Source of the DNA: Ophiosphaerella korrae
Taxonomy: Eukaryota; Ascomycota; Dothideomycetes; Pleosporales; Phaeosphaeriaceae
DNA length: 64,000 nt
Direction of reading: 5' to 3'
Assembly (NCBI GenBank): GCA_028456385.1
Contig: JALNQF010000004.1
Coordinates: 248,001 to 312,000, forward strand
A program made the translations under genes and the position numbers. The first letter of the stretch is position 1. Each line of letters begins with the position of its first letter. The notes under the pieces are model-generated. The model saw nothing but the letters and a program-made list of their open reading frames with translations. It made no database searches and was not told the origin of the DNA. Of the stretch, positions 8,467 to 25,015 are shown piece after piece.

Positions 8467-10524
8467 TCATTTTAAGCTAGCCCCCTTGAGCCTCTTAGCC
8501 AGCTGTACTGAATCAGAGTCTGAACCATGAGAGGGCTGCCGTCTCAAACGATCTTGCGCTGCAGCCCCCCTACTGGTCGAATTGGAAAGACATGGAGATT
8601 GGTAGGAACGTTTCGGGGGGCGCTCACCACTTTCTTTGAGAATCGTTAAAAGCGTTGCCCAGCCTCCTGTGTGCTGGAGAGCCGAGCCTTCAGAGAGATC
8701 GTGTGATGATGCGACTTTGAAGAGGAGTGACTCCTCGTCCTAATACTCGGTTAGCAGCTTGGCCTGACCTATGAAGAGCAAAAACATACCTTGGATAGGA
8801 TACCAAGACTATGGACAAAGCATAGGAGATGGAAGTTCGAGATGGCGTTGAGGCCACTAGTAGTGTTTAGTGCAAGACCATTTGCTTTTGCGTTGAGCGA
8901 TTTGCCCAGAGTGGATACGTCGGCCATCTCGCCCATTATCTCACGGTTCTCGATTGGGAACTTGCCGCCTGTAAAGAGAGGACTTGGCTGGGTAGGGAAC
9001 CCGTGAGTAAGAGTGACTAGCAGGTACTCTACGGGGAAGTCAGGCTTCGCACTCTCCTGGACATTTGCTCCATGCTCATTTATCCTCCTGTAGAAGACCT
9101 CGGGAATGTATCGTGCACGATTTAGGGCATTGTCATCATCTTCTGACTGGACCAACATGACCGATGGCTCTGCTGATGGCTCGATGATGTCTGCTCGCAC
9201 CATCTCTACCGCTGCGTTAGATGCCTGATATGACGAGATACCAATCTGGCCTTTGTCGTCGCCACTGACTACACATGTGACGAAATTAGACCCGAACTTG
9301 CCAGTTTCGCTCCACTTGGTCGGCCGCGGGTACTTCGCCTGGTAGCGAGCTGCAAAGGTAATATCCAGGGACGATAGGTAGTACGAATCGATGTGCCGCT
9401 TGCAGATGACGGAGCCATCACCTTTGTCTGCATCTAATAGATCAGTAAAGATAACACCAACTCTCTGGAGGCCGCATTGTGCAGCAATATCGTCAATGTC
9501 CTTCTCGTTGTCCCACTCGCCAAGTGAAATGCCATCTACCTCATTGACTTGTGGCGGCTCGTAAATTGTCTCTACCACGGCCTTTGTGCCTAGTGGTACC
9601 TCAGCGTACTCCTCGTATCTGCCGTATAGGAAGCCTAGCCGTTGACACCCGGTGTTTCTCCAGAAATTGATCAGATCATCGACCACTTGTATGGAGGCGA
9701 ATTCGACGTGGTCAACCATGCGGTACTCTTGGGGCTTGAGGGAGATGGCGCTAGGCTGACACTTTGTGCAGATGCCTTCAGGGAATGGTTTGTGTCCAGA
9801 AGGACAGTCCGGTCGTACGCGGTAGTATGGTTCGTTGAGCGGTGGGATGTACGAGGCTCCGAGCTCCGGTCTGTTTTTTGCCGAGTTAACCTTTCGCAAG
9901 TACGAGTGGAATGACAGGTGCTTGATCTTTTTCTCGGCGAGGTACTCTGCCGAATAAGGCTCCAGCGGCATGCAGTAGTCGCACATGCCCTTGGGGCCGT
10001 GGGTGCACATGCGGACATCGCGTTTGCGGGCAATCTTGCCATCAAGACGGTCTAGCTTGTCGTCCAGTGGGGACTGCCGGACCACCTCCCATGGATTCTT
10101 TATGACTTGTGCAGGGGAGCCAAGAGGGGCAGCGGGCATGTCGGAGGCCTCGACAACTTTGCCATTTAGTCGGTTGGCGCCGATGGGAGCTGTGGCATGG
10201 CCGTTGGATACCGGCGAATGATGTTGGAAGTCGAGAAACAGCTGTGCGCCGTGTCTGGGAAGCTGTTAGTGAAGAAGTGTAGGTGGGACGAGTAACGCAC
10301 GATAGGCCCACCTGCTCAAAGGATACACCCTGTAGGTCGGCTATGTTTCTGGAGTCGCCGCCATGGGGCTTGTTGCTGATGGTGACAGTCCGGAGGTCGA
10401 CGGTGCTGGGCAGCTTATCCGCAATCTGGGGCAGGATGCCTGGGAAAGTGGTAGTGGGTTCGACAGTGAGGCGGAACTGGCCCTCTTTGCTAACAAATCG
10501 CAGTATCATGGTGCTCTCTGGCAT
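8467..10524 (-). CDS. NPL4: Nuclear protein localization protein 4 (Cdc48 cofactor)
   Basis: Npl4 pairs with Ufd1 to deliver polyubiquitinated clients to the Cdc48 unfoldase in ER-associated and chromatin-associated degradation. Exons 10524-10301, 10254-8790 and 8739-8467 (introns 46 and 50 nt) encode 653 residues. Order of domains: an N-terminal ubiquitin-like domain (residues about 6-75, beginning [14 protein letters not shown]), a zinc region with Cys158, Cys166, Cys169 and then Cys225, His229, Cys237, Cys240, and the MPN-like NPL4 domain from about residue 250. The last exon supplies the [18 protein letters not shown] segment and a basic Ser/Arg-rich tail. An in-frame Met five codons downstream (10509) is an alternative start and matches the usual MILRF start of fungal homologues. 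Confidence 0.95.
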
Positions 10525-18997: not shown

Positions 18998-21266
18998 TCA
19001 ACGTAGAGGGATGGTAGTCTCACCTAACTTCCCAGCATCCACCCGCTTCCTACTCTCTGTGTACTTTTCCAGACCCACATGTCCATTGATCCAATCTAGC
19101 ACAACTTCGTGCCACATCAAACTATTCTCGTGCTTCAGCACCCAATGATTCTCATCCGGAAACGTCAAAAACTGGCTGTCCACACCTCGAGTCTGGAGTA
19201 CGTTGAACGCTGCTAGCCCCTCACTAATAGTTAGCCTGTAGTCCAGCTCGCTGTGAATAATCAGGTGAGGAGTGTCCCAGTGTTCGGTAAAGCGGCTTGG
19301 ATCCCATTTCGCCCAAGCTTCCGGCTTGTTCCAAAGTTTTCCGGTGAGGTCGTGAAAGGGGAAGTACAATTCCTCGGAAGCCATTTGCCCAGTCATAGAG
19401 AAGACGCCGTCATGGGTTACAAGCGCTTTGAATTCGCGGCCAAGGGGGTGACCTTGAATCCAATTCATCATGTATCCGCCGTAACTTGCACCTAGCGCTA
19501 CAGCCCTGTCAGTGTCCACGTAGTTCAGATTCTTCTTGATCCAGTCAAATCCCAATGCAAGGTCTTCATACGGTAATCCGCCCCATTGCCCTTGAATTGC
19601 GTCTACAAATTTCTGCCCATATGATGTTGAGCCTGTGGGGTTCGGGCATATGACGATGTATCCTTGTTCGGCGAAGACTGCAGGATTCCAGCGTGTGCTC
19701 CAGCCATCTGTCCATGCGCCTTGGGGTCCACCATGCACTAAATATGCAAGCGGGTATGTTTTCGAAGACGAAAATGTACTGGGCTTCACAACCCAGGCGT
19801 GAATGGATGTATGTGGAGCGGCGCCAGGAAAGAGGATTTCATCAATCTGGCTGCGTGAAAGGCCAAACATGGCACCGGAATGCGAAGTAGAAGATATATA
19901 TTTTGTTGTCCGATGGTGGGATTGCGAGTCGTAGGGGCGGTGGTCAGTGCAGAGAGTATAAACCACATCCTGGGAGGGGGAGGTACTGACAGGTACCAGA
20001 CTGTAAAGACTATTTTCAATCAGGCTAGTAGATGTTAGAAAAATATCACCCGACTCAAGAACATGAGCCGAGTTTATGGTTCCACCTTCAACAAGGAGGG
20101 TGGGGAGATGTGTATCTTCTTCCTTCGTCGCGGGAGGATGAGATTGAAACAAGGAACCACGTCCGTGTGCTTCTGCTAAGAAATAGAGACGCGCATCATC
20201 TGCACTCCAGGTGACTGACTGCGGGCTTCGGTCCCATGTGCCCTGGCCATCCTTAGATCTCCATAATAAAGTGCTTTCTGAGGGTTTCGTATAGTCGAAG
20301 AGTATGAAAGGTTCGTTTTTGTCGGATTCGTAGCCATCCGTTCTCATTGAGAGAAAAGCAATCATCTTGCCAGAAGTTGACCACACAGGACCTGTGCTAG
20401 CACCTTTGAAACCATCGATGGAGACCTTGTGTATTTCTGGGAATTCTTCGTAAAAGAGGTTATGCCAAAACCCTGGCTTTGCCACCACGTAGATGTTGGT
20501 TTTGGTATGTGTCGCAGGATTGAGACTCGGATCCTTTGACGTGAAGACAAGTCCGTACCTTGAGATGTCAAAGTGATCTTTTCCACCAAATGGCTCGATC
20601 GGGCTTTCCAGGTTTGTCCCTTCCAGAGCGTTTTTTAGCTTGCTGAGCTCAAATTTATCATTGTCCTTCTTGTGTAACTTCGCGAGCCAAATAGCGTTCC
20701 GGTTCTGGTCCGTGTAGTGGTCCCAATGCCTCACAAAACCCGCATTATAAATTCTACCTGATGAAAGGGGCTTTTCAGCATCCTTGGGGTTCAGCAATGA
20801 GCCGTCGGGCTTTGCTTTGCCAGACATAGCGATGCCATACCAACCAACGCCAAGATCCTTGATCTTGAGATCACCTACTGGACCTGCAATGGTGCCAGCA
20901 ACATATTTGCTTGCATCATATCAGCGAGCCGAAACCATGTGAATTTTGGTGTTCTTACCTTGTCTCGAAGTTACTCGCATTTCCAACAACAACACTAGTA
21001 GTCCCGTCTTCTTCGGCTTTGAGATACAAAATTGTGTCATTGTCTATCCAATTCGGCTCACTTGCTGACTTATCGTCCGTTATCAGACTAGATTGTTGAG
21101 TTTTGGGATCCAGAAGCCGGATCTCAGACTTTTTCGCATGTTGCGCAAAGCTGTAAGCTGATACACTATACAAGACCTTTGATCCCGAACGATTTGGTTG
21201 AGCTTGGGAGCGTCGAGGTGCTTCAAGTAGCACCTCTGGTGTAAATTTTCGTGCTCTGATCGTCAT
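18998..21266 (-). CDS. Dipeptidyl-peptidase V-like S9C serine peptidase, non-secreted form
   Basis: Prolyl-oligopeptidase-family enzyme that removes dipeptides from peptide N termini. Exons 21266-20959 and 20909-18998 with a 49-nt intron give 739 residues. An N-terminal beta-propeller precedes the alpha/beta-hydrolase domain, which begins near the HGGPQGAW oxyanion motif. The catalytic triad can be placed: Ser578 in GASYGGY, Asp659 in SELDYRL and His691 in DENHWV. Unlike secreted DppV of Aspergillus, this protein opens with MTIRARKFTPEVLLEAPR and has no signal peptide. I infer a cytosolic member that recycles peptides. The intron donor lies directly before a stop in the unspliced frame. Confidence 0.92.
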
Positions 21267-21972
21267 AATAGAGGTGGTAAATTTTTGAGATGATTAACTA
21301 GTAGTTATACTGTTAGCGTTTCCATAAGGCCGTGTTTCCGTCAGAGGAACTCAAGAGTTGAACGAGGAATCGAAGTACAAGTCGCTCATGCGAAACAGGG
21401 CGTCCACTCTCACCCGAACAGCATACAGGATGCAGGAACAATGCGCTTTCTCCACAAGTTCGCAGGCCATGAATACCTAAAACGAGCGGACTGGTCTGTC
21501 TAACTTGGTGGTTTTGGTACAGACCTTTAGAACACAGCATCTGTGAATTGCCTATGCGACAGGACGTACATGATCCAATGAAAGATGATGTGCCCAATTC
21601 TAATGTGAGAATCGAGAACGATTCACGACTTACCACTAGGTCGGATTGCTCCAAATATGAATATCAAGTGCGCTAGATCGCGCGTGTGAAGTGCTGGAGG
21701 GAAGGCTGAGCGACAAAGACACCGTAATGTTGGAGTGCAGCTGCTAGCCGAATGGGGCCCATAATCAACCCCTCACGCCAGCCACCTAGCCCCACTATTT
21801 AGGCCACAAACGATATCATTGCTCACTGAAAGATGCGAACACATCTCACCCGCAAAGTGTGACACCGGGACTCCCTGCGCAATGGTCTAAGAATACACTG
21901 CTTGACTACAAAAATATATATATATTTTAGCTAATTTAAGAAATTTCCAAATTTCAGTCCGAGGGACCTTCG
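21267..21972. other. Intergenic with TATA-rich stretch before the tRNA gene
   Basis: About 700 bases between DPP5 and the tRNA gene. Open frames are short and unrecognised. A TATATATATATATTTTA-type stretch at about 21914-21930 lies roughly 45-60 bases upstream of the tRNA 5-prime end, a position where TATA-like elements can aid Pol III. I infer that role; only the sequence is seen. Confidence 0.5.
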
Positions 21973-22129
21973 AGTCCTGTGGCGCAGTGGTAGCGCGCCG
22001 TTCTTATAAGTTTCGTCAGACACTTATGACTCTATTTGAGTAATGCGGATGCCGTGGGTTCGAGTACGTTTCTCTGAATGGTGCCGAGGGTTGAACTTAA
22101 CTAACATTCCTCAGACCCCACCAGGACTA
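21973..22129 (+). tRNA. tRNA-Ile(UAU), anticodon TAT, with two interruptions
   Basis: Exons 21973-22008, 22043-22063 and 22115-22129 give a 72-nt tRNA. The acceptor stem pairs 21973-21979 (AGTCCTG) perfectly with 22122-22128 (CAGGACT); A at 22129 is the discriminator. D-arm GCGC/GCGC has loop AGTGGTA. The anticodon loop is CTTATAA, with TAT at 22005-22007 and A37. The T-stem is GTGGG/CCCAC with loop TTCGAAC. The first insert, 22009-22042, sits after position 37 like a normal tRNA intron, and its ACTTATGA pairs with the anticodon loop. The second insert splits the T-loop. A box TGGCGCAGTGG is intact; the B box begins GGTTCGA and is interrupted. One weak point: positions 31 and 39 form a T-T mismatch. 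A T5 terminator follows. Confidence 0.85.
22064..22114 (+). other. 51-nt GT-AG intron-like insert in the tRNA T-loop
   Basis: The insert begins GTACGT and ends CTCAG. It contains TTAACTAAC (CTAAC at 22101-22105) about ten bases before the acceptor. These are the donor, branch and acceptor signals used by protein-coding genes in this window, and 51 nt is the typical intron length here. Exact removal joins TTCGA to ACCCCAC, producing a standard seven-base T-loop and a fully paired T-stem. It lies outside the anticodon loop, where nuclear tRNA introns normally sit. Spliceosomal removal is inferred; the signals are seen. Confidence 0.75.
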
Positions 22130-22142
22130 AGAATCTCTCTTC

Positions 22143-22147
22143 TTTTT
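22143..22147 (+). terminator. Probable Pol III terminator (T5)
   Basis: A run of five T residues 14 bases after the tRNA discriminator base. Fungal Pol III often needs longer runs, so strength is uncertain, but the placement supports a live transcription unit. Confidence 0.6.
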
Positions 22148-23486: not shown

Positions 23487-25015
23487 TCAAGTATCGAGAA
23501 TATTTTCAAGAGAAACATCATCCTCAGCTCCGCCAACAGGTTCGGTGTTTTTCCAAAATTTGCTGAGATGTCTCGCACCGCTATGGGAATGTTAACGAAG
23601 CTACCGATCCCTTGTAGCCAAAAATTACCTGTCGCACAACAGTGTCACGATTCGATGACCAGGGCCAAGCATCTTTGCAAGCTTTATTGCAGCCACGCCT
23701 GTGCTAATTAGTTCAAAATGTCATGTATGATTCAGTGAATGACTTACAATTCACCGCGCTAGAACTGCCGATGAAGATCCCATCGTGTTCCACTAGCCAG
23801 CGTGCCATATTGATTGCTTGCTCGTCATTCACTCTAATAGCATCATCGACGAGCTCCCTGCCTACATCGAAATTGTGAGTGACTCTGTTTATGCCGATAC
23901 CCTCGACGATAGTATCTACTTGATGTCGCCGGCGTGTACCTTCTCTTTCCTTGGGGTCAAACATGACACCGTATTTAATACGATTGTATAAGCCGCTTCC
24001 TGGAGGATCCGCAAGGACAACCTTAAGATCGGGAATTTTTGACTTTAGGAATAGGGAGACGCCGGAAATGGTGCCTCCTGTGCCAGCGCCACTCACAAAA
24101 GCGTCTAAGTAACCTCCGGTTTGCTCGTAAATTTCTGGTCCTGTGCCAGTGAAGTGCGCACGCCAGTTTGCCTCAGTCTCAAATTGATCTGCGAAGAGCC
24201 CCCTTCCAGGCTTATCGGGACTTGCTGTATGCTCTGCAGCTCTTGTGCGAGCAAGATTGACAAACTGGTTCTGGTCAACAATTGGTGCTGGTCGCACTCT
24301 CTCCACCTCTGCGCCAAGTTTCAAGAGAAGATCCGACTTCTCGATTGCCATGTCATTTGGCATACAACTTTAGTTGTTAGATATTGATTGCCAAAGTCAC
24401 GCACCCACTTACATGTGTGCTTTGTAGCCTCTTGCTCGACATATTGCGGCTAACGAAATACCTGTGCTTCCTACAGTTCCTTCATAAATGGTGTCACCAG
24501 AGTTGGGTACAATTAGACCTTCGCCCTCGGCCTGGAGTCAAGGTTAGCTATGGAGCCCCAAGGCAAGGCGTGCGTAGAAATGGCCTGGCCATACCATTTC
24601 AATAATGCTGAGGGCCACCCGATCTTTAGGGCTATTACCGGCGCCATTGAGAAACTGAGTACTTTTATTCAGCTTGGCCTCTTCAAGAACGCAGTCATGG
24701 CCGCTCTACCTCTGCTTTTGCAAGTATTTCGCATCCTGTATATTCGGATAGTGACTTGATTTTGATCAAGGGTGTGTTACCAATACAACCTTCCACTCCT
24801 AATTTGATGCTTCCAGCGCCATGACCTAGTGAATTACCAACTTCCCCCAAGGTTTTTTTCAACGTGTTTATATCACTGGTGTTGCTATATCGCTGACGAG
24901 GGGGAGCTGTTGTTGACTTTCGGTCTCGATAAGATAACCGTTTGTTGTACGCAGTAGTCAGAAGCACACCAAGAATAAATGCCCCCAAAAGATAATGTCT
25001 GGATGGGTCTGACAT
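23487..25015 (-). CDS. Cysteine synthase-like PLP enzyme, membrane-anchored (yeast YGR012W/Mcy1 type)
   Basis: Fold-type II PLP enzyme related to O-acetylserine sulfhydrylase. Six exons, 25015-24710, 24654-24595, 24531-24413, 24367-23748, 23698-23629 and 23580-23487 (introns 45-55 nt), encode 422 residues. Residues about 8-22 (YLLGAFILGVLLTTAY) form an N-terminal anchor, as in the yeast outer-mitochondrial-membrane protein Mcy1. Family marks: GNTPLIKI, Lys112 in the PKDRVAL segment as the PLP lysine, the NSGDTIYEGTVGSTGISLA loop and SGAGTGGT phosphate loop. The usual NPGGSVKDR is here NGAGNSPKDR, so substrate use may differ. It shares a 176-bp promoter with the methyltransferase gene at 25192. 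Confidence 0.92.

Follow-up and report, generated by a model that had tools for sequence, protein, structure and literature searches.

Spliceosomal-type introns in the T-loop, and at other sites, of nuclear tRNA genes in a fungal genome

The gene for tRNA-Ile(UAU) in the window, the 64,000-nucleotide stretch of DNA analyzed here (G000:C334:248001-312000), is interrupted twice: by an intron of the ordinary tRNA type at position 37/38 and by a 51-nt intron of spliceosomal type in the T-loop, between positions 58 and 59. This T-loop design is not a single case but runs through the genome, and the whole assembly (63.0 Mb in 974 contigs) yielded 18 spliceosomal-type introns in 17 tRNA genes, the window gene counted. 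Nuclear tRNA introns are taken to be the work of the tRNA endonuclease alone and lie mostly at one place, and we know of no use of the spliceosome by tRNA genes. The sequence evidence makes it highly probable that the 17 loci are functional nuclear tRNA genes, that their inserts are ordinary short spliceosomal introns of U2 type, and that the Pol III precursors of these genes are spliced by the spliceosome. The features of the window gene are as follows.

21973..22008, + strand: tRNA-Ile(UAU) 5' exon, positions 1-37, anticodon TAT at 22005-22007 (sequence read, cloverleaf derived)
21980..21990, + strand: putative internal promoter A box TGGCGCAGTGG, after the general consensus; presumed function
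22009..22042, + strand: 34-nt intron of the ordinary tRNA type at 37/38 (cloverleaf derivation; exact ends uncertain, ARAGORN placing a 15-nt intron here)
22043..22063, + strand: tRNA-Ile(UAU) middle exon, positions 38-58 (3' strand of the anticodon stem, variable loop, T-stem 5' strand, TTCGA)
22057..22067, + strand: putative B box into which the intron cuts, the exon end and the first intron bases together reading GGTTCGAGTAC; presumed function
22064..22114, + strand: 51-nt spliceosomal-type intron in the T-loop at 58|59, GTACGT...CTAAC...CTCAG; its removal restores the cloverleaf
22064..22069, + strand: 5' splice site GTACGT of the T-loop intron (sequence read)
22101..22105, + strand: branch site CTAAC of the T-loop intron, branch A at 22104, 10 nt before the intron end
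22112..22114, + strand: 3' splice site CAG of the T-loop intron (sequence read)
22115..22129, + strand: tRNA-Ile(UAU) 3' exon, positions 59-72 plus the discriminator A (sequence read, cloverleaf derived)
22143..22147, + strand: T5 run, likely Pol III terminator

The first-pass annotation of this DNA had picked out acceptor strands AGTCCTG (21973-21979) and CAGGACT (22122-22128), T-stem strands GTGGG and CCCAC (22117-22121), and between them a 51-nt block that starts with GTACGT, contains CTAAC and ends in CTCAG, and all of these elements are present, GTGGG at 22054-22058. It had also held that cutting exactly at GT and AG leaves the loop TTCGAAC and restores 12 pairs. The cut does so, but the pairing does not prove its exact place, because the 12 pairs come back complete in eight different registers. 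TTCGA is preserved in three of them, and of these a single one, which yields TTCGAAC, has GT-AG ends. Pairing alone sets the length of the insert, not its phase. The spliced molecule has a T-stem of 5/5 pairs, an acceptor stem of 7/7 and an anticodon stem of 4/5 (U-U at 31-39). Neither ARAGORN nor Rfam at gathering scores reported a tRNA in the unspliced window, and after in silico removal of the 51-nt block ARAGORN reported tRNA-Ile(tat) and placed another intron in its anticodon loop. Because the intron begins with GTAC, exon and intron together still make up most of a B box: GGTTCGAGTAC agrees with the general consensus GGTTCGANTCC at 10 of its 11 positions when N is taken as agreeing. A BLAST search of the assembly with this locus returned only the locus itself. 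Upstream of the gene, at window positions 21868-21928, lie CTGCGCAATGGTCTAAG, which resembles an A box, and the run TATATATATATATTTT, which might be an upstream Pol III element.

The census of the assembly drew on several searches. Of the four matches to an initial pattern combining T-loop, donor, branch site and acceptor, one was the window gene, another was L055, a gene of like design for tRNA-Leu(UAG), and the remaining two do not resemble tRNAs. The gap-free pattern RGTTCRAGTRHGT gave 39 matches versus 51 for its reversed control; all 39 sites were read, and 12 proved to be tRNA genes with a T-stem of 5/5 and an acceptor stem of 7/7 after cutting 49-53 nt ending in AG, while 5 of the other 27 had a chance 5-pair match only. 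A wider pattern gave 69 matches versus 77 for the reversed control, and its 34 further GWTCRAGTAHGT sites contained no tRNA by eye, with a chance 5-pair T-stem match in 1 of the 34 (five sites were left out). Queries with mature tRNAs added a further pair of Gly(GCC) genes interrupted in the T-loop; the intron of one is GT-AG, that of the other GC-AG. The like design of 13 further genes at 58|59 places the T-loop insert far beyond chance, and chance resemblance is ruled out by the recurrence in 17 genes together with the 34 further sites without a tRNA.

Fourteen of the 18 introns lie at 58|59, in genes for Ile, Leu (two), Glu (three), Gly (four), His (two), Asp and Arg, and one each lies at 11|12, 14|15, 25|26 and 34|35, so that tRNA genes for nine amino acids are hosts and the canonical 37/38 location is used by none of the 18. 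The genes with introns at other sites, and the GC-AG case, are the following.

L091: tRNA-Lys(CUU), intron at 11|12
L051: tRNA-Lys(UUU), intron at 14|15
L074: tRNA-His, intron at 25|26 (D-arm), plus a T-loop intron and a 37/38 intron
L050 / L097, G000:C973:123947-124082, minus strand: tRNA-Pro(UGG), intron at 34|35, inside the anticodon; miscalled Leu(taa) by ARAGORN
L147, G000:C790:101380-101610: tRNA-Gly(GCC), GC-AG T-loop intron with donor GCAAGT

The inserts share the signals of mRNA introns. All are 49-54 nt long, 17 are GT-AG and one is GC-AG, and every one ends in YAG (11 CAG and 7 TAG). A branch site CTRAY lies 6-15 nt upstream of the intron end in 16 of the 18, compared with 6.3% of shuffled sequences, the other two having ATAAC and TTAAC instead. 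The GT of the first 12 T-loop introns is partly a matter of selection, since the search pattern demanded GTRHGT, and AG ends and stems were also demanded in sorting; the two later Gly introns and the four introns at other sites were found without a splice-site pattern, and the branch site was not demanded by the GTRHGT pattern. For comparison, 50 mRNA-like introns were collected mechanically from open frames in 235 kb, GTRNG and CTRAY being demanded and some of the introns surely false. Their median length is 56.5 nt, against the 49-54 nt of the tRNA introns, and they show the same signal classes in donors and branch sites, GTAAGT, GTATGT and GTACGT being common to both sets (GTACGT in 3 of the 50). 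An example from the window is the NPL4 intron at 8740-8789 (50 nt, GTATGT...GCTAAC...TAG), which is supported by a Pfam match that ends at position 274 of 309, at the end of the frame. The mRNA-type reading proposed for the window's insert at first pass thus fits its donor, branch site, acceptor and length, and it also fits the missing bulge-helix-bulge geometry discussed below and the one GC-AG case.

The interrupted genes are probably alive, judging from several features of their sequences. ARAGORN reported a tRNA in 17/17 spliced sequences, with the anticodon as we read it in 14/17 (the two His genes were called His(atg) where we read GTG, and the Pro gene Leu(taa) where we read TGG), versus no tRNA in 15/17 and a miscall in 2/17 when they were left unspliced. 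Splicing gave a T-stem of 5/5 in all 17 and an acceptor stem of 7/7 in 16, with 6/7 in Pro. A run of at least five Ts starts 6-19 nt past the acceptor stem in every gene, and TTTT occurs inside none of the 18 tRNA introns versus 10 of the 50 mRNA-like ones, a difference that is not significant (p=0.052). Judged by eye from the general consensus, 14 genes have a B box interrupted after A58, which speaks against the reading proposed here, and the two Lys genes have an interrupted A box. When mature tRNAs were used to query the assembly, no full-length copy of Ile(UAU), Glu(CUC), Gly(GCC), His, Pro(UGG) or Arg(UCG) appeared among the 20 matches listed, and matches to the T-loop cases stopped at A58 or one base further. 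BLAST found three Glu genes, each with the intron. Within the Glu, Gly and His sets, the paralogues agree fully in mature sequence, whereas global alignments give 59-85% identity for their T-loop introns and 49-61% for flanks of 40 bases. The empty site can be seen in intact paralogues for Asp (L042) and Lys (L029 and L035) and, for the D-arm intron of L074, in another His gene (L068); the T-loop TTCAATT of the intact Asp gene supports the GT-AG register of the interrupted one.

In the pathway that we envisage, Pol III would transcribe each gene from its internal A and B boxes to the T-run terminator, and the spliceosome would excise the GT-AG or GC-AG intron from this precursor as a lariat, by intron definition. 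Excision would rebuild the T-arm, on which RNase P, RNase Z and the CCA enzyme depend; for four introns it would restore the D-arm or anticodon loop instead. The 37/38 intron would be taken out by the established pathway of tRNA endonuclease (SEN) and ligase, probably after the spliceosome step, since the tRNA endonuclease in general takes its measure from the folded mature tRNA. Because the introns are just like mRNA introns in appearance, the spliceosome seems to be required for making these tRNAs. Folding of the precursors was not uniform: the acceptor stem was at least 0.84 in 14/14, and the 3' splice site was mostly paired (unpaired <0.2) in 6/14. A stable T-stem as a general feature of the unspliced precursor was rejected, its mean pair probability exceeding 0.5 in just 4/14. 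The T-stem and 3' splice-site figures count against the proposed pathway, as does the 3' exon, which at about 15 nt plus the trailer is very short for a spliceosome substrate.

Three other explanations have to be set against spliceosomal splicing of Pol III precursors. Introns outside 37/38, sometimes several to a gene, are described in the tRNAs of Cyanidioschyzon merolae, the Guillardia nucleomorph and Crenarchaeota in passages of two reviews (PMC4090602, PMC3978253), and the T-loop inserts could likewise be ectopic introns cut by the SEN endonuclease, as in the two algae, the more so as a 37/38 intron is often present in the same genes. The introns of those groups are assigned to the splicing endonuclease, with a bulge-helix-bulge in C. 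merolae, whereas those described here have GT-AG or GC-AG ends, a branch site and a length of 49-54 nt that are unexpected for SEN introns. The bulge-helix-bulge fold, which had been named at first pass as a pointer to SEN, also fails: in the 16 introns tested (the two late Gly introns left out), the central helix of intron nt 2-5 with 3'-exon nt 2-5 forms 1/4 pairs in 15 and 3/4 in one. This failure is not final by itself, because Guillardia introns often go without a defined bulge-helix-bulge, according to a passage of PMC3978253, but taken with the splice signals it leaves SEN cleavage very unlikely. We also see little likelihood in the tRNAs being embedded in Pol II transcripts, spliced as mRNAs are and then trimmed out. 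Such a route would give the spliceosome its usual capped substrate, but the tRNA boxes are largely retained, the T runs follow the acceptor stem in 17/17 genes, and the window gene lies between an open reading frame that ends at 20827 and one that begins at 23713 (frames of at least 200 aa were listed, so shorter exons fall outside this comparison).

Another reading is that the interrupted genes are dead copies, with intact genes elsewhere or absent from the assembly. The assembly is in 974 contigs, intact paralogues exist for Asp and Lys, and the list of tRNA genes is incomplete, with 63 out of 1896 candidates scored and several isotypes turning up in no search, so an intact copy could have been overlooked. 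Eight tRNA sequences of other fungi used as queries gave no match, leaving Phe, Ala(AGC), Tyr, Trp, Val(AAC), Gln and Thr not located in this way, and Glu(UUC) was also not found in the assembly searches. Degenerate tRNA-like relics occur as well, and one uninterrupted locus, L036, is labeled tRNA-Ile(tat) by ARAGORN, which counts as evidence against live interrupted genes. With a GC content of 0.33 in surroundings of 0.27, L036 shares 29 of 45 aligned bases with spliced Ile(UAU), and it belongs with six other AT-rich, decayed tRNA-like repeats (L037, L049, L089, L090, L094 and L095), to which it is 77-85% identical; we take it to be a relic on account of its AT-richness, its identity to these six and its unlikeness to spliced Ile(UAU). 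Such repeats are perhaps tRNA-derived and mutated by a RIP-like process. For a second, intact tRNA-Ile(UAU) gene, which at first pass had been said to mark the window gene as a dead copy if the locus also gave no spliced transcript, there was thus no full-length match, the one labeled candidate being of this decayed family. The dead-copy reading is weakened further by the lack of a full-length match for six isotypes among the 20 matches listed, by the common design of the Glu, Gly and His paralogues, whose mature sequences stayed identical while their introns diverged, and by the intact T-stems and, in 16/17, acceptor stems. We judge it improbable to much the same degree as SEN cleavage.

The nearest known parallels to spliceosomal introns in tRNA genes are found in other small RNAs. 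The U6 snRNA genes of fission yeast and other fungi contain mRNA-type introns that are removed by the spliceosome and thought to derive from reverse splicing, according to passages of PMC10484740. These, too, interrupt a small Pol III RNA, but U6 is itself a part of the spliceosome, whereas the hosts here are tRNA genes for nine amino acids. A U6 intron in this genome was considered and rejected, the sole match over the cut-off having none, which is a point against the spliceosomal reading. Passages of PMC5832005 describe introns of fungal U3 snoRNA genes as GT-AG, rarely GC-AG, with a branch site RCTRAY, clustered insertion sites and paralogues with and without the intron. The tRNA introns are alike in their GT-AG and rare GC-AG ends, their branch sites, their clustered site and their paralogues with and without the intron. 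According to the same passages, as of 2017 U3 and U6 alone among small structured RNAs were known to carry introns frequently; the passages do not mention tRNAs. Of two tRNA-intron reviews, one does not use the word spliceosome (PMC4090602) and the other uses it once, about protein genes (PMC3978253), and the paper on tRNAscan-SE 2.0 describes its search for noncanonical introns for the archaeal mode, with the spliceosome unmentioned (PMC8450103). No prior report of spliceosomal introns in tRNAs was found in the open-licence literature, and an earlier report may exist elsewhere.

As to their origin, the T-loop introns resemble each other. Those of different isotypes reached z>2 in 13/60 pairs, versus 11/351 mRNA-mRNA and 12/324 T-loop-mRNA pairs, and when one T-loop intron per isotype was taken, as much similarity arose in 5 out of 5000 random draws of seven mRNA introns. 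The motif YAC stands at intron positions 12-14 in 9/12 T-loop introns tested versus 0/50 mRNA-like ones, and in the looser span 10-16 in 13/16 tRNA introns versus 7/50, figures that are post hoc because the motif was noticed in the same sequences; at 12-14 it is absent by eye from the two later-found Gly introns. We found no explanation for it. Introners and introner-like elements are similar in that many spliceosomal introns were gained in one lineage, but they occur as near-identical genomic copies, and 16 concatenated tRNA introns matched only their own loci (17 matches, one of them a reverse-strand self match), so a recent introner burst was rejected. The resemblance is compatible with descent from a common, older source or with gene conversion through the T-arm, and also with a shared constraint. 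It is conceivable, and we hold it tentatively, that a tRNA-specific family of spliceosomal introns spread through this genome via one site, T-loop 58|59 in the B box, and came to interrupt tRNA genes of seven or more amino acids, with reverse splicing into tRNA and gene conversion through the shared T-arm as examples of a route, and that the supply of Glu(CUC), Gly(GCC) and His tRNAs now depends on the spliceosome. A scan of IMG/VR for relatives came back empty. A match in a bacterial MAG contig (L148) is GC-rich, contains no tRNA and looks like a chance match.

Should the tRNAs of a genome indeed need the spliceosome, then Pol III precursors can be routine spliceosome substrates, and mRNA splicing would be directly linked to decoding via the supply of essential tRNAs. 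The genes would also offer many natural introns at a known site for testing intron gain. Tools that search for tRNAs in eukaryotic mode could be missing whole isotypes, and genomes with odd gaps in their tRNA sets could be re-examined at once.

Two further observations concern the assembly and the window. Contig C92 of the assembly (87,939 bases) has many compact tRNA genes and is probably the mitochondrial genome. The window also encodes a NAT10/Kre33-like protein that makes a filamentous ascomycete the likely source of the DNA: its best PDB sequence matches score 1354.9 and 1354.8 bits, with a third at 1175.5 bits; we take the top two to be from Chaetomium and the third to be from baker's yeast.
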